A DNA stretch of 64,000 nucleotides. Origin: Microcoleus sp. FACHB-68 (GTDB lineage Bacteria; Cyanobacteriota; Cyanobacteriia; Cyanobacteriales; Oscillatoriaceae). Below the pieces are notes generated by a model. The model had not been told where the DNA came from. It made no database searches and saw only the letters and a program-made list of their open reading frames with translations. This document shows, piece by piece, positions 5,588-52,306 of the stretch (position 1 is its first letter; each line of letters starts with the position of its first letter). Location of the stretch: contig NZ_JACJOT010000013.1 of NCBI RefSeq assembly GCF_014695715.1, positions 248,001 through 312,000 of the forward strand. The letters run 5' to 3'. A program made the translations under genes and the position numbers.

Positions 5588-5753
5588 GCTAACCAGCATT
5601 AAACTTGCAGCTTTGTTACAAAGTGCGATTGGGATAAAAGCTTAAAATTCAGCAAATAGAGAACTTTGAATGCAAAAATGAATAGTTAAGTTTAATGCTA
5701 ATTAGCTTAGACCGCCGGCATTTGATCGGGTGGGCAATGCCCACCCAACTTAT

Positions 5754-8699
5754 TTATGCCGGCGAGTATGCCTCCATTGGCAAACAAGAACAGACAAAAT
5801 TGCGATCACCAAAGGCATTGTCAATCCGCCCGACTGCCGGCCAGAATTTGTGTTCGCGAGTCCACGGAACCGGGAAAGCCGCTTGTTCGCGCTCATAAGA
5901 ATGGTTCCATTCCGCTACCATCAAGCTTTCTGCCGTGTGGGGCGCATTCTTGAGAACGTTATCTTCAGCATCCGCCTGACCGAGTTCAATTTCCTCGATT
6001 TCGTGGCGAATGGCTATCATCGCATCACAAAAACGGTCGAGTTCTTCCTTCGATTCACTTTCTGTGGGTTCTACCATCATGGTTCCCGCCACCGGCCAAG
6101 AAACGGTAGGCGCGTGGAAGCCATAATCCATCAAGCGTTTGGCGATGTCATCCACTTCAATACCGGCACTCTTTTTCAGAGATCGCAAATCCAAAATACA
6201 CTCATGGGCCACTAAGCCGGCTTTTCCTTTGTACAGCACAGGGTAGTAAGCTTCTAATCGGCGGGCAATGTAATTTGCATTCAGAATCGCCACCTTGGTT
6301 GCTTGCGTCAAGCCGGCAGCGCCCATCATTACAATGTACATCCATGAAATCGGCAAAATGCTAGCGCTTCCCCAAGGCGCAGCCGAAACCGCACCCACTG
6401 AAATTTGAGAATTTTCTCCATTCTTAATTCTCAATTCTTCGTGTTTAACAACCCCGTGTTGAGGTAGGAACGGCACCAGATGGGAGGCGACACCAATGGG
6501 ACCCATGCCAGGACCGCCGCCGCCGTGGGGGATACAGAAAGTCTTGTGCAAGTTTAAGTGACAGACATCTGCGCCAAAATCTCCTGGCCGGCATAACCCG
6601 ACTTGAGCGTTCATATTCGCCCCGTCCATATAAACTTGGCCGCCTTGGGCGTGGACAACCTCGCAGATTTCCTTAATTTGCTCCTCGAATACGCCGTGAG
6701 TCGAGGGATAAGTCACCATCAGGGCGGCAAGTTCTTTGCTGTGCTTTTGTGCCTTATCCTTGAGATCGTCGAGGTCAACGTTGCCTTGAGTGTCACAGGC
6801 AACCGGCACAACTTTCATGCCGCACATGACTGCACTCGCTGGATTTGTCCCGTGGGCTGACTGGGGAATGAGACAGACATCCCGGTGTGCTTCTTGCCGT
6901 TGTTCGTGGTATTGACGAATCACCAACAGGCCGGCATATTCGCCTTGAGAACCGGCATTCGGTTGTAGGGAAACTCCCGCAAAGCCGGTGATTTCTGCTA
7001 ACCATCGCTCAAGTTGCCCGAACAAGATTTGATAACCTTGAGTTTGAGAACGTGGCGCAAAGGGATGAAGTTTGTTGAATTCTGGCCAACTCACCGGCAT
7101 CATTTCCGCTGTGGCGTTCAGCTTCATGGTGCACGAACCCAAGGGAATCATTGAGGTTGTCAGGGACAAGTCTTTTGCTTCTAACTGGTGTAGGTAGCGC
7201 AAAAGCTCGGTTTCCGAGTGATAGCGGTTGAAAACGGGGTGGGTGAGATAGCTACTGCTGCGGAGTTTAAGGCGTGGCCATTCTCCGCTGTGCAATAATT
7301 CTTCAACCGTGAAGGGGAGAGTTTCGCTGCCGGCGAAAATATGCCAGAGGTCAAGCAAGTCTGTGACTGTGGCGGTTTCGTCTAGGGAAATGCCGATGGT
7401 TGTAGCATCAATGGTACGCAGGTTAATTCGATTAACTTCAGCGGTTTGCAGAATCTCTTCCAGGGATTTTGACCCTAATTCTACCCGCAGTGTATCGAAG
7501 AAGGGTTCTGAACCGATGCTGTAGCCCAGACGTTTCAAGCCGACTGCCAGGATAGCAGTTAATTGATGAACTCTCTGGGCAATTCGTTGCAATCCTGTCG
7601 GCCCGTGGTAAACGGCATACATGGAAGCAATAACAGCTAGCAGCACTTGTGCAGTACAAATGTTACTGGTAGCTTTATCACGACGAATATGTTGTTCTCG
7701 TGTTTGCAAGGCTAAACGCAGCGCCGGCTTACCGTTGGCATCTTGGGAAACGCCGACGATTCGCCCTGGAACTTGCCGTTTATAAGCTTCTCGCGTGGCA
7801 AAATAGGCTGCGTGAGGTCCCCCATATCCGAGGGGAACTCCGAAGCGCTGGGTGCTTCCAACGGCAATATCTGCTCCAAATTCGCCGGGGGGTTGCAAGA
7901 TACAAAGACTTAAAATATCTGCCGCCACTGTCACCAAGGCACCGGCACTGTGGGCTTTTTCAACAAAAGGCCGGTAATCGTAAATTGCCCCATCACTGGC
8001 GGGATATTGCAGCAGCGCCCCAAAAATTGCTTGTTCAAAGTTAAACGTTTGGTGATCGCCGACAATGACTTCAATCCCCAGTGGTTTAGCGCGAGTTTGC
8101 ACAACTTCGATGGTTTGGGGATGGCAGTTTTGGGATACAAAGAAAGCTTTGGCTTTTGTTTTGCAGAAGCCATAGCTCATCGCCATCGCTTCTGCGGCGG
8201 CTGTGGCTTCATCCAGTAGAGACGCGTTGGCAATTTCCAAGCCGGTGAGGTCGATAATCATCGTCTGGAAATTCAGTAATGCTTCCAGACGCCCTTGGGC
8301 AATTTCCGCTTGATAAGGCGTGTAAGCGGTATACCAGCCGGGATTTTCTAGGATGTTGCGCCCGATAACCGGCGGGGTGATACAGTCGTAATAGCCCATG
8401 CCCGTGAATGAGCGGAACACCTGATTTTTTGAGGCAATCTGTTTCAATGTTGCCAAGGCTGCGTATTCGGTTTGCGCTTCCGGCAATTGCAGCGGTTGAG
8501 TCAACCTGATTACTTGGGGGACTGTTTTATCGATGAGGGTGTCAAGGGATGGCAGCCCTAGCACATCAAGCATTTGCTGAATTTCATCGGAATTAGGGCC
8601 AATGTGCCGATGAACAAATGTATCGGTCGGCGCAAGGTCAGGGTTCAGCAAACTTGATAAATTGGTCTCTGTGCTAGCTGTGGTATTCAAATTAGGCAT
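5754..8699 (-). CDS. gcvP: Glycine dehydrogenase (aminomethyl-transferring), P-protein
   Basis: The protein has 981 residues, the full length of the single-chain P-protein. It decarboxylates glycine with pyridoxal phosphate and passes the aminomethyl group to the lipoyl arm of GcvH, as part of photorespiratory glycine breakdown and one-carbon supply. The N-terminal half starts with [17 protein letters not shown] and contains [15 protein letters not shown]. The C-terminal half contains [15 protein letters not shown] and the cofactor site [16 protein letters not shown], with the Schiff-base lysine near residue 719. The start is an ATG at 8699. The gene lies 830 bp downstream of gcvH on the same strand with a terminator-like hairpin between them, so it is probably transcribed from its own promoter. 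Confidence 0.97.
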
Positions 8700-44519: not shown

Positions 44520-45209
44520 CTACTTTGTTAAGCCGTGTTCCAAGGCGTAGCGGACTAATTCAGTGCGGCTATTGGTGCCGGTTTTGCTAAATAGCCGGCT
44601 AACATACTTTTCCACATTGCGAACACTGGTTTCTAAGCGGCGGGCAATTTCTTTATTCATCAACCCTTGAGCAACCAGATCCAAAACACTTTGCTCTCTG
44701 GGAGTCAAGTCAATTTTAATCGGTGCCGGTGTCTGCGTAATGCCACTACGACCCGTCAGTAAAGACTTAATCTCAGCAATTTGACTGGCAAGCTCAGTAA
44801 TATCAGGCGTTTCACCATCGCCAGTCTTTGCCGTCGCCTCTCGCCTCTCCAGCAAATTTTCTACAATTGCCACCAATTCATCGGGGTCAAACGGCTTAGA
44901 AATATAGGCATCACAGCCGGCTTGATAGCCTAGAATTCGGTCAGATGTCATGCCTCTAGCAGTTAAAAACACCACCGGCAACGCCTTAAAACGAGGGTCA
45001 TCTCGCAATTGCTTGAGAAACTGATAGCCATCGACTTGGGGCATCATCACGTCCGTAATCACCAAATCAGGCCGTTTCTGCTGCACCAGTTCCCATCCGA
45101 GATTGGCATTACTGGCTACGTTCACACTAAATCCACTGTCTTCTAGATAAGCTTGCACTGCTTCGCGCAATCCAGGCTCATCATCGACCAGTAATAATTG
45201 TGCTGACAT
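44520..45209 (-). CDS. NarL/LuxR-type response regulator (Ycf29-like)
   Basis: The protein has 229 residues. The receiver domain (1-120) has LLLVDDEPGLREA, the phosphoacceptor aspartate in LVITDVMMPQVDGY, and FLTARG and YISKPFDPDE. After a linker that includes SQIAEIKSLLTG, the C-terminal LuxR-type helix-turn-helix reads LTPREQSVLDLVAQGLMNKE with VRNVEKYVSRLFSKTGTNSR. It binds DNA when phosphorylated; the partner kinase is not adjacent. AAAGGGA precedes the ATG. It follows the hlyD-like gene by 71 bp on the same strand and may share its transcript, so it is a candidate regulator of the graspetide locus. It also resembles the widely conserved Ycf29 regulator, which would make it housekeeping. 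Confidence 0.9.
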   Translation of the reverse strand: MSAQLLLVDDEPGLREAVQAYLEDSGFSVNVASNANLGWELVQQKRPDLVITDVMMPQVDGYQFLKQLRDDPRFKALPVVFLTARGMTSDRILGYQAGCDAYISKPFDPDELVAIVENLLERREATAKTGDGETPDITELASQIAEIKSLLTGRSGITQTPAPIKIDLTPREQSVLDLVAQGLMNKEIARRLETSVRNVEKYVSRLFSKTGTNSRTELVRYALEHGLTK

Positions 45210-45280: not shown

Positions 45281-46768
45281 TCACAAATCCGTCAGTAGCC
45301 TTGCCTTTCTGAGAATAAACGTCAGAACCGTCTCTTTTCTAGAAATAATATCAGCCGTGCCTTGCATCCCAGCTTGAATCGGACATTTGCGATCACCCTG
45401 AACCAAAGCAAGGTTTTCCGGCTGAACCGTCACTTCAAAAAAAGCAGCGTTTGAGGTGGGAGTTTGGGGAGATTGTGAATTGACGTCAGGCTTCATTGCA
45501 TCCGGTGAAACTCCCGTCACCTTGCCTTTAAGGATGCCGTAATCAGGATAAGGACAGGCAGACACTCGCATTTGCACAGCTTGGCCGGCTTTCACGCGGC
45601 TGATATCTTCAGATGACACCAGCGCTTTCACCACCAAAGGCGCTTCACTGGGGGAAATTTGAGCAATCAGATCCCCTGGACGCACCATTTGAGAAGTGTT
45701 ACGGAGATTAAGCTGATGAATCGTGCCAGAAACCGGCGCGCGAATCACAGTATATTTCAGTTCAGTTTCTATTTGTTGCAGTTCTTGCTGATCGCGGCCC
45801 AGTTGGCTTTGGAGTTCAACTTTTCGCTGAATTAACTGTTCTCGTTCCTGATTTAATCTCGCTAAGGTGGCAACACCGGCAGCTTTTTCCTGATCAATTT
45901 TCTCCCTTGCCATTGCCACGATTGCCTCACTCGGATCAAGGCCGGCTGATGCCCCTTGCAATCGCGCTTTTGCCGCCTCAATCGCTTGTTGTTGCCGCTC
46001 AATTGCTTGCTTTTGGCCGGCAATCACCGCTTTTTGCTGTTCAACGGCTTCTTCTTGTTGCTCAACTGCAAGTTTAACTTCCTCGAATTGATCTTGAGAA
46101 AGTCCGCCAGATTCAACTAAAGGCTGATACCGATCTCGCCTCGTCCTCGCTGACTTTAAAGCCGCCTCAATCGATCTCAAATTCGCCTCGGCTGACGTTA
46201 AATCTGCCTGCGCTTTTTGCAATTCTTCTTCAGAACTCCTTAAATTGGCTACAGCTTCGGAGACTCCAGCTACAGAGGTTACTTGCTGATTTTGATAGTC
46301 CCGTTGAGTGCGAATTAAATCTGCTTGAGCTGAGGCAACCATGCGGTTATTGCGGTCAGTTTCTGCTGCAACTTGACCGTCTATCGCCTTCATTTGAGCA
46401 TCGAGTTGAGTGAGTTGGAGTTGGTTGTTTTGAATATTTCCTTGCAGTTGATTTTTTTTAGTTTGCAGTTGTGAATCATCAATATAAGCGATCACTTCTC
46501 CCTGTTTGACTGCTTGATTTTCTTTGATTTCAATTCGGTTAACGCTGCCTTGAGCAGCCGCTTGAATGAGTCGCAGATCGCCGGTGGGGCGAACTGTTGC
46601 AGCGGCTTTAACAGTAACATTGTATTTTGTGATAGCAGCAACGGTGACGCCAATGCCAAATGTTGCAACCAAAAAGAGTCCGCCCAGCCTTGTCCACAGA
46701 CTGATAGGCGGGAGAAATTCGTTACTATTAAGTGGTTGAAAAAATTCTGAGTCTGATTCACTCAACAT
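45281..46768 (-). CDS. HlyD-family membrane-fusion (adaptor) protein
   Basis: The protein has 495 residues from the ATG at 46768 (MLSESDSEFFQPL). The longer frame overlaps the ATP-grasp gene and is less likely. One N-terminal helix (LGGLFLVATFGIGVTVAAIT, about 27-46) anchors it. A split biotinyl-lipoyl domain (AQGSVNRIEIKENQAVKQGE and YTVIRAPVSGTIHQL) flanks a long coiled-coil hairpin of about 220 residues rich in Gln, Glu and Ala. A beta-barrel C-terminal part follows. Such adaptors link an inner-membrane ABC exporter to an outer-membrane TolC channel. It starts 17 bp after the MdnC-like ligase gene, and the matching peptidase-ABC exporter lies at 50162-52306. Confidence 0.92.
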   Translation of the reverse strand: MLSESDSEFFQPLNSNEFLPPISLWTRLGGLFLVATFGIGVTVAAITKYNVTVKAAATVRPTGDLRLIQAAAQGSVNRIEIKENQAVKQGEVIAYIDDSQLQTKKNQLQGNIQNNQLQLTQLDAQMKAIDGQVAAETDRNNRMVASAQADLIRTQRDYQNQQVTSVAGVSEAVANLRSSEEELQKAQADLTSAEANLRSIEAALKSARTRRDRYQPLVESGGLSQDQFEEVKLAVEQQEEAVEQQKAVIAGQKQAIERQQQAIEAAKARLQGASAGLDPSEAIVAMAREKIDQEKAAGVATLARLNQEREQLIQRKVELQSQLGRDQQELQQIETELKYTVIRAPVSGTIHQLNLRNTSQMVRPGDLIAQISPSEAPLVVKALVSSEDISRVKAGQAVQMRVSACPYPDYGILKGKVTGVSPDAMKPDVNSQSPQTPTSNAAFFEVTVQPENLALVQGDRKCPIQAGMQGTADIISRKETVLTFILRKARLLTDL

Positions 46769-46785: not shown

Positions 46786-47763
46786 TTATTTTTGAGACTG
46801 AGCGAGCAAAATATCCGCGATTGCATGGGAAATCGGTAAACCAGGGCACAATTCCAGCCAGAAAAACTCCCCGACTGGGTTAACTTCTAGGAAAATATGG
46901 CGACCGTCTGGCGTTAAGATTAAGTCAAGCGCTCCGTAATTTAAGCCAAAGTTGCTCATTAACTGTAGCAGCTTTTCTTCGAGTCTCTGGGGTAAATTAT
47001 AGGGTTTCCAATCATCTATCAGGGCTAAGCCTTGCCTGCGCCAATCGTGACGCGCCTTCTCCGAACTTTGAGAATCAATTGAGGCGGTAAACAACTGCTT
47101 CCCGACAACAATTGTGCGTAATTCTAAGGCTTTGGGAATATGTTCCTGAAATGTCATCGGACAAAAGCACAGTCCATCAAGATTTTCTAGATCCTCAGCA
47201 GTTAAAGGATTGGTGAAAACGACTTTTTCTACACCCTCTTCATAAATTGCAAAATAGGAATGCATTTTGGTGATTAAATTTCCCTCGCACTCGTGGGCAA
47301 ATTCTCGCACGGATTGGGGATTATTGGTCATTAAAGTGCGTGGCGTATCAATCCCCAATTCTCGTGCAACTTGCAACTGCAATTGTTTGTTTTCCGCCCG
47401 CCGCAGATGGGGCACTGGATCAAGGTGAAAAGCTTTAAGGCTAGCGATCATGCCTTGAACAGTCGCCCGTGATTCTTGAATCGAGGCTTGTCTGAGTTGG
47501 GCATCCATTGTGTTAGGAATTCGCCCGCCAATTCTGAGCCGGCGATACCAGACGGCGGAAACTTCACGCAGATCCAGTTGCTCTTGTTCAGTAGCGATCA
47601 TTAATCGCTCTTTTCCGTTACTGTAGTAGATATCTAGCTGAATCTCTGTGGGAAATTGATCTGTGTTAAAACGAAATGCTTTGCCGCCTTGTTTTTCGAT
47701 GGCGTCGATTACCATCGGGATGCTTTCGTTATCTTTACTATGGGTAATAATTAAAACTGTCAT
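46786..47763 (-). CDS. mdnC: Microviridin ATP-grasp ligase, MdnC/MvdD type (ester-forming)
   Basis: The protein has 325 residues. It starts MTVLIITHSKDNESIPMVID and contains FRFNTDQFPTEIQLDIYY, VSAVWYRRLRIGGRIP, RRAENKQLQLQVARELGI and the ATP-grasp end YGALDLILTPDGRHIFLEVN followed by PVGEFFWLE. These segments match the MvdD/MdnC ligase that in microviridin synthesis activates acidic side chains with ATP and closes the two omega-ester (lactone) rings between Thr/Ser and Asp/Glu. Assignment to the ester-forming paralogue rests on the NDESIP-type start and the GEFFWLE motif as I recall them. The start is an ATG at 47763 without a strong Shine-Dalgarno sequence. It lies 193 bp after the MdnB-like gene and 17 bp before hlyD. 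Confidence 0.93.
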   Translation of the reverse strand: MTVLIITHSKDNESIPMVIDAIEKQGGKAFRFNTDQFPTEIQLDIYYSNGKERLMIATEQEQLDLREVSAVWYRRLRIGGRIPNTMDAQLRQASIQESRATVQGMIASLKAFHLDPVPHLRRAENKQLQLQVARELGIDTPRTLMTNNPQSVREFAHECEGNLITKMHSYFAIYEEGVEKVVFTNPLTAEDLENLDGLCFCPMTFQEHIPKALELRTIVVGKQLFTASIDSQSSEKARHDWRRQGLALIDDWKPYNLPQRLEEKLLQLMSNFGLNYGALDLILTPDGRHIFLEVNPVGEFFWLELCPGLPISHAIADILLAQSQK

Positions 47764-47956: not shown

Positions 47957-48943
47957 TCAACGCTGCTCAGATAATAAAGTATCTGCAATTGCCTCAGAAA
48001 TTGGAAGGTTTAAATCTCGCTCTAACATTCCCCATTCCCCTGTCGGGTTAACTTCAAGAAAGATATATTCACCGTCTGGTGTTTGGATAAAATCGAAGGC
48101 TCCAAAAAGTAGCCCAAACTCTGCCATAAAAATATTAAGACCATCGGCAATTTGACTTGGGATTTCTGCCGGCTCCCACACACACTCTCCGGGTTTAGCA
48201 TTACGCCAATCCATTGTTGTTGCGGAATAACGAGATGCATCGAGTGCCCCAGCAAACAATTTCCCTGCCACAAAGATCACTCGCAATTCTCTCAATTTTG
48301 GAATTTGCTCTTGGAAAACCATCGGACTATAACGCAGTGATTCAGCATCTGCCAGATCCGCTTCTTTAACTTCGCTGGTATACAGGAAAAAAGCGGAGCC
48401 TTCCATACTTGCTGAAAGGGGGGTCAAAAGTTTAGCCACCATTTTTCCCTTCAGTTGTTGAAAAAAGTCTCGTGCTTCTTGAGGATCGTTGGTAACGAGC
48501 GTTTGGGGAATTTGTAAGCCGGCTTTTCTGGCAATTCTAAGCTGACGCAACTTGTTTTCTGCGGCGGAAATGTGTCGCAAATCATCCACCCAGCGCACCT
48601 CACTGAGGCTGTCTAAGAAGCCGAGAAGGGCAGCGCGTGACTCTCGACGACAAGCGTACTGGTACTGTGGTGATAATTCTGGACTCAGCTTGGGTTCCCA
48701 AAGCCGGCGCATCCAAACTGATCGCACTTGCTCTGTGCTGATAGATTTGTCTTGATAGTGAAGCCGGTGATGCAGTCTTTCGCTATCAATTTGAGCTGAA
48801 AGTTGCAGATTCATTGGGAATTGATCGGTGTCGAGACGAAAAGGTTGTGCCCCGCGCTGAACGATGGCTTCGGCAACGCGATCAATCGTGAAGAAATCTC
48901 CACTGTGGGTGAGCAATAAAACAATATTGCGAGACAAACTCAT
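47957..48943 (-). CDS. mdnB: Microviridin ATP-grasp ligase, MdnB/MvdC type (amide-forming)
   Basis: The protein has 328 residues from the ATG at 48943 (MSLSRNIVLLLTHSGDFFTI). A longer frame to 48991 adds a phenylalanine-rich stretch and is not favoured. Motifs run parallel to the MdnC paralogue: FRLDTDQFPMNLQLSAQ, RSVWMRRLWEP, SAAENKLRQLRIARKAGLQ, MVFQEQIPKLRELRVIFVAG and FGAFDFIQTPDGEYIFLEVN with PTGEWGMLE. GEWGMLE separates it from the GEFFWLE paralogue. In characterised pathways this enzyme closes the lactam between lysine and a glutamate after the lactones are formed. It lies 178 bp downstream of the precursor gene on the same strand. Confidence 0.93.
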   Translation of the reverse strand: MSLSRNIVLLLTHSGDFFTIDRVAEAIVQRGAQPFRLDTDQFPMNLQLSAQIDSERLHHRLHYQDKSISTEQVRSVWMRRLWEPKLSPELSPQYQYACRRESRAALLGFLDSLSEVRWVDDLRHISAAENKLRQLRIARKAGLQIPQTLVTNDPQEARDFFQQLKGKMVAKLLTPLSASMEGSAFFLYTSEVKEADLADAESLRYSPMVFQEQIPKLRELRVIFVAGKLFAGALDASRYSATTMDWRNAKPGECVWEPAEIPSQIADGLNIFMAEFGLLFGAFDFIQTPDGEYIFLEVNPTGEWGMLERDLNLPISEAIADTLLSEQR

Positions 48944-49121
48944 GAAAAAAAATGCGGTGAGGTGGGCAAACAAAAAAGGTTGCAAACCCAAAAATCCGCA
49001 GAACTGATTAACTGGGAATCAGATAACTGCGGATTATAAGCTATGCAGTTATTACTTGTTGCAGTTTGCTGGTTTCCAAAGCCGGCTGTCTAATTGCATT
49101 AAACTCAGCTTGATCAAGCCA

Positions 49122-49415
49122 TTACAGGCAGCCGCCGGAGTCCTCGGCATCAGACGGGTACTTCATTGTCACCATGACTTCCCCTTCATCTTCGGCATCA
49201 GATGGGTACTTCGTCGTTGTCACGTCTCCACCCTCTTCTTGGTCAGATGGATACTTTTCAGTTACAGCAATTCCGCCGCCGTTACATTTTGATTTTTTCC
49301 TGCATTTACCGCCGGCTGCGGCTTCCATATCCTCTTCAGAAAGTTCTTCAATGTTCTGGCTTTCTAGGAAGCGGGCGAAAAAGGGAACTGCTTTTTCGTT
49401 TGGCATTTCAGACAT
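49122..49415 (-). CDS. mdnA: Tri-core microviridin-type graspetide precursor
   Basis: The protein has 97 residues; the ATG at 49415 is preceded by AAGGAG. The leader has the microviridin recognition helix PFFARFL (11-17). It ends with LSEEDMEAAAGG (25-36), an excellent fit to the double-glycine leader consensus read by C39 peptidases. A basic linker KCRKKSKCNGGG (37-48) with two cysteines follows. Three cores follow: TEKYPSDQEE (52-61), TTKYPSDAED (67-76) and TMKYPSDAED (83-92), separated by Gly/acidic spacers. The C-terminus is SGGCL with a third cysteine. Each core keeps the ring-forming Thr, Lys, Ser, Asp and acidic pair. Products of this family usually inhibit serine proteases; this one's target is unknown. 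Cores 2 and 3 are nearly identical in DNA, suggesting recent duplication. Confidence 0.95.
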   Translation of the reverse strand: MSEMPNEKAVPFFARFLESQNIEELSEEDMEAAAGGKCRKKSKCNGGGIAVTEKYPSDQEEGGDVTTTKYPSDAEDEGEVMVTMKYPSDAEDSGGCL

Positions 49416-50161
49416 GAGTATATTACTCCTTTCTTTGTAGCAGTCAATTTTTGGATAGCAAAAATCTGGCTAGCTGAATACCACTCAGTTTCAGACTGAA
49501 GCCGAAAGACGTTTCTCAGGAATTGTGGGTTCCTTGTTTTAAAAAAATGTTACTTGAAATTTAGTAAAATTTCTAGATAAGTATTTTTACTTTTCTTCCG
49601 AAAAAACTGATATTTTCAGTAGGTTACACGCGATCCCCAGGACTTGACAATCGCATTTGCATTAAGATAGGGTTAAGCGATCAAAGTAATGATTTCCGCC
49701 GGCTAAAAAATCAAAACCAATTTTTTAAAGCGATCAGTGTTTGGCCAATAGCATGAAAATCCGGATGAGGAAGAAATACGCGCTCGGTTTCATGCAGTTA
49801 TTTCAAGATTGGTAGTAGACAGAGAATTTTTAGAATGTGTGCTTTAATGCCAGAAAGTTTCCTAGGAATTATTTAAATTTTCTCGAATAGGGGAAAGTTG
49901 GGATAAGTTTGGATAGCTGAGTTGGCATATTTCTAAATTTTGTCAAGATTAATTTTCTACCGGCGGCTTTGTGATCCCAAGCAAATTTGCTTCAACCCAG
50001 GTCAATCAAAGATATTCAACCTAAGAGGTTTCTAGCCGGCTTGAGGGTTGCAATCTCGCTTCAAGGCAGGAACACTGAGAGGATATCTAAGACTTCTCTG
50101 ACATCTTCTCAGCCAAGCCGGCATCTACCATCATTAAAGATGCGCTTTCCCTTAAAGACGA
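49416..50161. other. Divergent control region, graspetide operon / exporter
   Basis: This 746-bp gap lies between the precursor gene (leftward) and the exporter gene (rightward), so both promoters should be here. A TTGACA box at about 49645 on the plus strand could be a -35 element, but the -10 is unclear. I searched both strands for a second precursor with KYPSD or PFFARF motifs and saw none. The sequence is AT-rich on the left and richer in CCGGC near the exporter. Confidence 0.55.
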
Positions 50162-52306
50162 ATGAAATACCAGGTTGTTTTACAGCACAGTGAAGAAGAC
50201 TGTGGGGCTGCTTGTCTTGCCACCATTGCTAAACAGTACGGGCGCACGTTTACCCTCAACCGTATCCGGGAAGCCGTCGGTACCGGCCAGTTGGGAACGA
50301 CCTTACTAGGACTGAAACGGGGTTCAGAGGTACTTGGTTTCAATGCTAGAGGCGTTAGGGCTTCACCTGAAATTTTAGACAAGATGAAAGAAGCCCCTTT
50401 GCCGGCGATCATTCACTGGATGGGCTATCACTGGGTGGTTTTGCATGGACAGCGGGGTAAGAAATATGCGATCGCTGACCCGGCTGTTGGCATCCGTTAC
50501 CTGTCTAAGGAAGAGTTAAGGGAGGGCTGGGCCAATGGCTTGATGCTTTTACTTGAACCCGATCCCGTCCGCTTTTCTTCCCAGTCCGATGATAAAATTA
50601 GCGGTTTTGGGCGTTTCTTTAAGCCGGTGTGGGCTTATCGAGGCATTCTGGGTGAGGCTTTTCTAATTAATCTTGTTTTAGGGATGCTGTCTTTAACTTC
50701 CCCGTTTCTGCTGCAAATTCTCACCGATGATGTGCTGGTTCGTGGGGATACGCAGTTGCTTACAGGTGTGGTCATTGCTGTTGTGATTATGAACTTTCTC
50801 AGCAGCAGCCTCCAGCTCGTCCAGTCTAACCTGATTGCTCACTTTGCCCAACGGTTACAGTTAGGGCTAGTGCTGGAATTTGGAAGAGTCATTTTGCGTT
50901 TACCCCTAAGCTATTATGAAGCGCGTCGCAGTGGTGAAATTGTCAGCCGGCTACGAGATATTCAAGAAATTAATCAGTTAGTTTCCCAAGTCGTTATCCG
51001 TCTTCCCAGCCAATTATTCATTGCTGCGATTTCTTTGAGCTTTATGCTGTTCTACAGTTGGAAACTCACCATAGCTGCCTTTTTATTTGCACTTTTAATG
51101 ACCTTCTCGACAGTCATTTTTCTGCCGGCACTTCAGCAAAAAACTCGAACCTTATTAGTTTTAGAGGCAGAAAATCAGGGCGTCTTAGTCGAAACCTTTA
51201 AGGGCGCACTCACCCTAAAAACCACCACAGCAGCCCCCCAATTTTGGGAAGAGTTTCAGAGCCGGTTTGGTCGCCTAGCTAACGTGACATTCCGCACAAT
51301 TCAAATTGGCATTATCAATAATACCTTTTCTGGGTTAGTTTCCAGTATCAGCAGCGTTGCCTTGCTTTGGCTCGGCAGCAGTTTAGTGATTAGCCAAGAA
51401 TTAACCATCGGTCAGCTATTGGCATTTAACAGCATGAATGGTAATTTCATCGGCTTCATCGGCACAATCGTCGGATTTGTGGATGAATTTACGATGGCTC
51501 AAACGGCTACACAACGCCTGACAGAAGTGATTGACTCGACTCCTGAAAGTCAGAACGACTATCAAAAGCCGATTGCTAAAATTCCCGGCAATGCTGACAT
51601 TATTTGTACGAACCTCAACTTTTATCATGCGGGTAGAGTTGACCTTCTCAAGGAATTTTCTCTCAAAATCCCTGGCGGTAAAGCCACTGCTTTAATCGGT
51701 AAATCTGGCTGTGGCAAAAGTACCCTGGCTAAGCTGATTGCGGGTTTACACTCACCCCAATCAGGCAATATTCGCTTTGGCATTTATAATATGCAAGACC
51801 TTTCTTTGGATTGCTTGCGCCAACAGGTTGTCCTAGTCCCGCAAGACGCTCACTTTTGGAGCCGGTCAATTATTGAAAATTTTCGTTTGGGTAATCCTTA
51901 CGTGACATTTGAGCAAATCGTTACGGCTTGCCAAATTGCTGAGGCTGATGAATTTATTAGTAAGTTACCCGATAAATATCAAACCGTTTTGGGAGAATTT
52001 GGCGCAAATATTTCTGGAGGACAGCGGCAGCGACTAGCAATTGCCAGAGCGATTGTTAATGATCCGCCTGTATTAATTTTAGATGAATCCACAGCCGGTT
52101 TAGATCCGGTCAGTGAGGCTGAAGTTCTAGACCGGCTGCTGTCCTACCGGCAAGATAAAACGACCATTACAATCAGTCACCGCCCTAGAGTGATTGAGCG
52201 TGCTGAGTGGATTGTGTTTCTAGAAAATGGTCAATTAAAATTACAAGGTTCTGTGGAGGATTTGCGAAAACTTCCCGGCGATCATATTAATTTCTTAACG
52301 CCTTAA
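50162..52306 (+). CDS. Peptidase-containing ABC exporter (C39 peptidase / ABC transporter)
   Basis: The protein has 714 residues. The N-terminal C39 cysteine peptidase has C14 in HSEEDCGAACLATIAKQYG, H90 in MGYHWVVLHG and D106 in IADPAVG. A six-helix transmembrane domain follows (about 165-440), with LTSPFLLQILTDDVL and a cluster near IGQLLAFNSMNGNF. The nucleotide-binding domain has Walker A LIGKSGCGKSTLAKL (about 512-526), signature ISGGQRQRLAIARA and Walker B VLILDESTAGLD. It should cut the graspetide precursor after Gly-Gly and export it with the HlyD-like adaptor. An outer-membrane TolC is not in the window. Its stop is 2 bp from that of the convergent GT2 gene. Confidence 0.95.
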   Translation: MKYQVVLQHSEEDCGAACLATIAKQYGRTFTLNRIREAVGTGQLGTTLLGLKRGSEVLGFNARGVRASPEILDKMKEAPLPAIIHWMGYHWVVLHGQRGKKYAIADPAVGIRYLSKEELREGWANGLMLLLEPDPVRFSSQSDDKISGFGRFFKPVWAYRGILGEAFLINLVLGMLSLTSPFLLQILTDDVLVRGDTQLLTGVVIAVVIMNFLSSSLQLVQSNLIAHFAQRLQLGLVLEFGRVILRLPLSYYEARRSGEIVSRLRDIQEINQLVSQVVIRLPSQLFIAAISLSFMLFYSWKLTIAAFLFALLMTFSTVIFLPALQQKTRTLLVLEAENQGVLVETFKGALTLKTTTAAPQFWEEFQSRFGRLANVTFRTIQIGIINNTFSGLVSSISSVALLWLGSSLVISQELTIGQLLAFNSMNGNFIGFIGTIVGFVDEFTMAQTATQRLTEVIDSTPESQNDYQKPIAKIPGNADIICTNLNFYHAGRVDLLKEFSLKIPGGKATALIGKSGCGKSTLAKLIAGLHSPQSGNIRFGIYNMQDLSLDCLRQQVVLVPQDAHFWSRSIIENFRLGNPYVTFEQIVTACQIAEADEFISKLPDKYQTVLGEFGANISGGQRQRLAIARAIVNDPPVLILDESTAGLDPVSEAEVLDRLLSYRQDKTTITISHRPRVIERAEWIVFLENGQLKLQGSVEDLRKLPGDHINFLTP

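Follow-up and report, generated by a model that had tools for sequence, protein, structure and literature searches.

The locus described here raises the question of what a short reading frame with three repeated cores encodes: is it a working peptide precursor gene, and if so, in what form would its product leave the cell? The frame lies in the window, the whole 64,000-nucleotide stretch of Microcoleus sp. FACHB-68 DNA that was analysed, and a preliminary description had called it a three-core microviridin-type graspetide precursor. The gene content, motifs, conservation and purifying selection that we observed point to a class II multi-core microviridin cluster, in which the cores would be cyclised, the leader cut by a C39 peptidase and a 61-residue inhibitor with three cages exported. 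We put the probability of this reading at roughly 0.93. The region holds the following features:

44520..45209, minus strand: response regulator with receiver and LuxR-type DNA-binding domains (PF00072, PF00196), adjoining the cluster
45281..46768, minus strand: HlyD-type exporter adaptor, 495 aa from the ATG at 46768 (PF13437, E=2.4e-19)
46786..47763, minus strand: MvdD-family ATP-grasp ligase, 325 aa (TIGR04184), putatively lactone-forming by homology
47957..48943, minus strand: MvdC-family ATP-grasp ligase, 328 aa from the ATG at 48943 (TIGR04185), putatively lactam-forming by homology
49122..49415, minus strand: class II microviridin precursor, 97 aa, with an ATG start and matches to NF033738 and Inhibitor_I10
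49308..49310, minus strand: codon of Gly36, the second Gly of a double-glycine motif, with predicted C39 cleavage after it
49420..49447, minus strand: weak promoter-like match TTGACT-16-TAATAT, just 5' of the precursor start
50162..52306, plus strand: ABC exporter with an N-terminal C39 peptidase domain, 714 aa (PF03412, PF00664, PF00005)

The open reading frame list and a motif search reproduced the 97-residue frame, the microviridin leader motif PFFARFL (residues 11–17) and the positions of the three cores, TEKYPSDQEE (residues 52–61), TTKYPSDAED (67–76) and TMKYPSDAED (83–92). The published core consensus TX1KYPSDX2(D/E)(E/D) (PMC5934393) has three exact matches in the precursor, starting at residues 52, 67 and 83. 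In profile searches the precursor matched NCBIfam NF033738 (microvirid_RiPP; E=1.1e-22, 80.6 bits, cut-off 26 bits) and Pfam Inhibitor_I10 (E=8.9e-28, 96.7 bits, cut-off 21 bits), in each case over three stretches. A search of the whole 6.53 Mb genome with NF033738 (E ≤ 0.001) returned 49122..49415 as the sole match and no second precursor. With MvdC and MvdD ligases directly downstream and cores that fit the consensus, the assignment as a three-core microviridin-type graspetide precursor is borne out; the observation is real and the gene likely functional. The double-glycine leader site (residues 35–36), the C39 exporter and three Cys residues (38, 44 and 96) were details absent from the preliminary description. 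The promoter-like match is not evidence by itself, because the region held two such matches against 1.9 expected from shuffles, and no terminators of the type scanned for were found in 48900–50300.

Microviridin classes were reportedly defined in a 2017 paper by Ahmed. According to the literature, class II precursors bear GG motifs and as many as five cores and are often accompanied by C39 transporters (PMC13039773; PMC7823629), and class I precursors have a single core and mostly lack a GG motif and a peptidase gene in the cluster (PMC13039773). The precursor found here combines three cores on a single leader with a GG motif at residues 35–36 and a C39 domain (PF03412) in the adjoining ABC exporter, which is the class II pattern; three cores and GG do not fit class I. 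Class I microviridins share the leader motif, the core consensus and the ligase pair with the window, but have one core only.

That multi-core forms are known in cyanobacteria, as had been stated beforehand, is confirmed by the Anabaena three-core system, by a Nostoc plasmid and by a non-random, mostly Nostoc-type sample of 115 loci with 111 distinct precursors, the window's own included. It combines loci near one MvdD-type ligase with the top NF033738 loci and with two stretches of plasmid, and the leader pattern was widened to take in PFFARYL precursors. Two to five cores were found in 77 of the 111 distinct precursors (one core in 34, two in 20, three in 45, four in 8 and five in 4); these counts are lower bounds, because the pattern misses imperfect cores. 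Of the 77 multi-core precursors, 72 had GG ahead of their first core, versus 7 of the 34 single-core precursors.

Because the core pattern itself sets or limits most residues, what it can reveal is the variation at X1 and X2. Among the 227 cores of the 77 multi-core precursors, X2, the residue after PSD, was G in 62, N in 37, S in 35, Q in 29, H in 19, A in 15, R in 9, K in 6, E in 5, F in 3 and T in 2, with C, I, L, D and W once each. W after PSD occurred in 16 of the 34 single-core precursors versus this one multi-core core. It had been suggested that Gln or Ala after PSD and the lack of an aromatic C-terminus might be new. These tallies show both to be usual in multi-core precursors, and a novel core chemistry was rejected. 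As to the exact core sequences, the suspected novelty survives for one of the three: among the sampled loci TTKYPSDAED occurs in the window's own genome only, whereas TMKYPSDAED is also present in genomes G047 and G090 (L012 and L112, L018) and TEKYPSDQEE in G047. X1 was L in 68 of the 227 cores, K in 50, Q in 45, R in 26, E in 13, M in 12, N in 5 and H in 4, with A, T, D and Y once each, and the sole Thr is that of core 2 in the window. Within the genus, X1 was Glu in core 1 and Met in core 3 in all three genomes, while core 2 had Thr, Met and Ala.

The 41 distinct three-core arrays had three different X1 residues in 32 cases, two alike in 9 and all alike in none. On a scale of 0–2, cores at the same position resembled each other at X1 and X2 with a mean of 0.72, versus 0.20 for cores at different positions (0 of 500 within-array shuffles reached the observed value). 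This says that the order of the core array is inherited; it does not imply selection, because the arrays share ancestry and are mostly of Nostoc type.

The precursor, the MvdC-type ligase, the MvdD-type ligase and the HlyD adaptor follow one another in this order on the same strand, and the ABC exporter is divergent, starting 747 bases past the first base of the precursor. Its C39 domain spans residues 2–134 (PF03412, E=3.8e-36), and near its N-terminus lies DCGAAC, which we take to be the C39 active-site motif. For the HlyD adaptor the reading frame list has a GTG start at 46849, and the congener genes share the 1488-base length; the adaptor scored below the NCBI type I cut-off (TIGR01843, 168 bits versus 208.65). 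The response regulator next to it is uncertain as a member of the cluster: its identity exceeds 99% in both congeners, and its dS (0.09 and 0.12) is lower than that of the five cluster genes (0.18–0.43).

The leader ends at residues 25–36 with LSEEDMEAAAGG, presumably a double-glycine site, with GG at 35–36 and K as the next residue. Judged from this sequence, the C39 domain of the exporter would cut after Gly36, and the ABC–HlyD system would export the 61-residue remainder, presumably via a TolC-type channel encoded elsewhere. The GG leader end suggests that the exported product is likely a single 61-residue chain bearing three tricyclic cages. The chain left by this cut (KCRKK...SGGCL) has a computed mass of 6489.92 Da, or 6327.82 Da (monoisotopic) with nine dehydrations and reduced Cys. 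For the full-length precursor the computed monoisotopic masses are 10474.70 Da unmodified and 10312.61 Da after nine dehydrations, any loss of the N-terminal Met aside. Further GG pairs at residues 46–47, 62–63 and 94–95 could allow other cuts.

It is possible, although we do not favour it, that the chain is also cut between the cores during or after export, which would release three small, separate microviridins that differ in P1. Such products would resemble microviridins A–K, first isolated by bioactivity, which derive from single-core class I precursors (PMC13039773). However, GG occurs in 44 of the 150 linkers between adjacent cores in the sample, which led us to reject it as a general internal cleavage signal, and the second linker of the window precursor, EGEVMV, is without GG. 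Literature listings showed no title announcing a published structure of a multi-core microviridin product, although such a structure may exist all the same, and the excerpts available from the literature on class II microviridins hold no statement on the final form.

Each cage would be a serine-protease inhibitor head, with X1 (P1, after Thr) setting the specificity: Glu, Thr and Met in cores 1 to 3. In relatives, position 5, between Thr4 and Lys6 and equivalent to X1, enters the S1 pocket of trypsin (PMC7823629). Met at X1 would make subtilisin the predicted target of core 3, in analogy to the F5M variant of microviridin L (PMC7823629). An uncut three-headed inhibitor with P1 Glu, Thr and Met that keeps its specificities by position and blocks several protease classes at once is a tentative and rather doubtful extension of the preferred reading. 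Export without cutting would make multi-core precursors a natural source of multi-headed protease inhibitors in which P1 can be tuned head by head, a property useful in inhibitor design.

An adjoining C39 exporter is not general to multi-core clusters, because a C39 gene was found beside 14 of 54 multi-core versus 2 of 18 single-core loci, a non-significant difference (p=0.33; 80 loci, of which 8 without a recognised precursor were left out; flanks of at most 8 kb, with some contigs short). In a group of Nostoc-type multi-core loci, most with GG leaders (L033, L034, L036, L039–L043 and L045–L049), nothing in the flanks of at most 8 kb matched the window's C39 domain; these clusters may thus rely on a leader protease and an exporter encoded elsewhere.

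The two ATP-grasp ligases were identified with high scores. The MvdC-type ligase reached 501.6 bits with TIGR04185 (equivalog cut-off 425), scored on a longer reading frame, and its best match among solved structures in a sequence search was AMdnB (7m4s; E=3.2e-139), with the alignment starting at residue 1. The TTG start at 48991 in the reading frame list is probably too long. The MvdD-type ligase reached 530 bits with TIGR04184 (equivalog cut-off 475), and its best structure match by sequence was 5ig9 (E=3.7e-126), which we take to be MdnC of the microviridin J pathway. Second came CdnC (7mgv), presumably the ligase of chryseoviridin. Chryseoviridin is described as a multicore graspetide with omega-ester rings, made by a dual-function ligase and distantly homologous to microviridins (PMC8939145); like the window, it has several cores per precursor. 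The MvdD-type ligase carries Lys166 and Asp280, compared by residue number with K165 and D280, which are named as essential in AMdnC of Anabaena (PMC5934393). The pairing of MvdC and MvdD ligases in one cluster is that of microviridins (group 1 graspetides). A profile search found no GNAT acetyltransferase (MdnD/MvdB) domain among the six proteins scanned.

By analogy with these relatives, the PFFARFL helix of the precursor would recruit and activate both ligases. The MvdD-type enzyme would first close two omega-ester rings per core and the MvdC-type enzyme would then close an omega-amide from the core Lys, giving up to nine dehydrations for three cores. Work from 2018 on the three-core precursor of Anabaena sp. 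PCC 7120 showed that AMdnC lactonises three cores in vitro, with five dehydrations as the most abundant product where six were expected (PMC5934393). Nine lost waters, the expectation of the preliminary description, are right as an upper figure. The same five of six lactones lend some weight to the idea that cyclisation of the cores stays incomplete in vivo, with lactams missing or one core open, so that a mixture of products arises; this is unlikely, since the cluster encodes both ligases and these are under strong purifying selection (dN/dS 0.07–0.10 versus the two congeners). A point against the preferred reading is that core 2 and core 3 both have a terminal Asp and would need a Lys–Asp lactam, versus the Lys–Glu lactam of reviewed microviridins (PMC7823629). 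This predicted ring is compatible with the consensus, which permits a terminal Asp, and Asp ended 146 of the 227 multi-core cores.

The cluster is conserved within the genus. NF033738 had one match in each of the three genomes of the genus examined, the window's own included, the orthologues in both congeners (G047 and G069) have three cores each, and the whole cluster was found in both. Identity to the congeners was 95.7% and 85.6% for the precursor, 95.7% and 94.1% for MvdC and 93.5% in both for MvdD. Precursor dN/dS versus the two congeners was 0.20 and 0.22, which indicates purifying selection; the values were 0.04 and 0.06 for the exporter and 0.17 and 0.21 for HlyD. By MvdD-type ligase, a Microcoleus vaginatus MAG came closest among named relatives (94%). 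It is no further evidence, because it is the same genome as congener G069 (M. vaginatus WJT46-NPBG5 MAG), with exactly overlapping sequences. That the precursor frame is a non-functional relic or a chance reading frame is highly improbable in view of the strong family matches, the orthologues in both congeners, a dN/dS of about 0.2 and the complete cluster. An even sampling of the order gave an NF033738 match in 66 of 388 genomes.

The cluster is of a known kind, because three-core work and descriptions of class II have been published; its arrangement is already known in cyanobacteria, and new among the sampled loci is the exact core TTKYPSDAED. AMdnA, AMdnB and AMdnC of Anabaena resemble the window in the leader-binding motif, the three cores and the MvdC- and MvdD-type ligases, a likeness that draws on the published description (PMC5934393) and the AMdnB structure match. 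The subject of that paper, as far as its available text goes, is macrolactonisation rather than the final product. On plasmid unnamed2 of Nostoc sp. UHCC 0870 (L115), the five genes recur with unchanged order and orientation and are already annotated as C39-ABC, precursor, MvdC, MvdD and HlyD, with the C39 transporter divergent and the precursor assigned to the microviridin/marinostatin family. Its MvdC-type ligase is 60% identical to that of the window, and its precursor has four cores (two KYPSD and two KFPSD) versus three. To a sample mostly of Nostoc type, the window adds a complete, well-conserved multi-core cluster in a Microcoleus-like lineage.

Some minor observations concern single proteins and loci. 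HlyD is less conserved, at 86.9% identity in both congeners, than the ligases (93.5–95.7%) and the exporter's ABC part (97%); identity of the exporter's C39 domain is 95.7% and 89.3%. A disulfide conserved in the genus was not supported, the Cys count being 3 in the window precursor, 1 in G047 and 2 in G069; one restricted to the window species is possible, with Cys 38, 44 and 96 all in the predicted product. Five-core precursors with a PFFARYL leader were found in two Moorena loci (L050 and L067), the latter with a second precursor of three cores, and one Cylindrospermum locus (L090) encodes two different three-core precursors, at 5668–5928 and 6369–6629.
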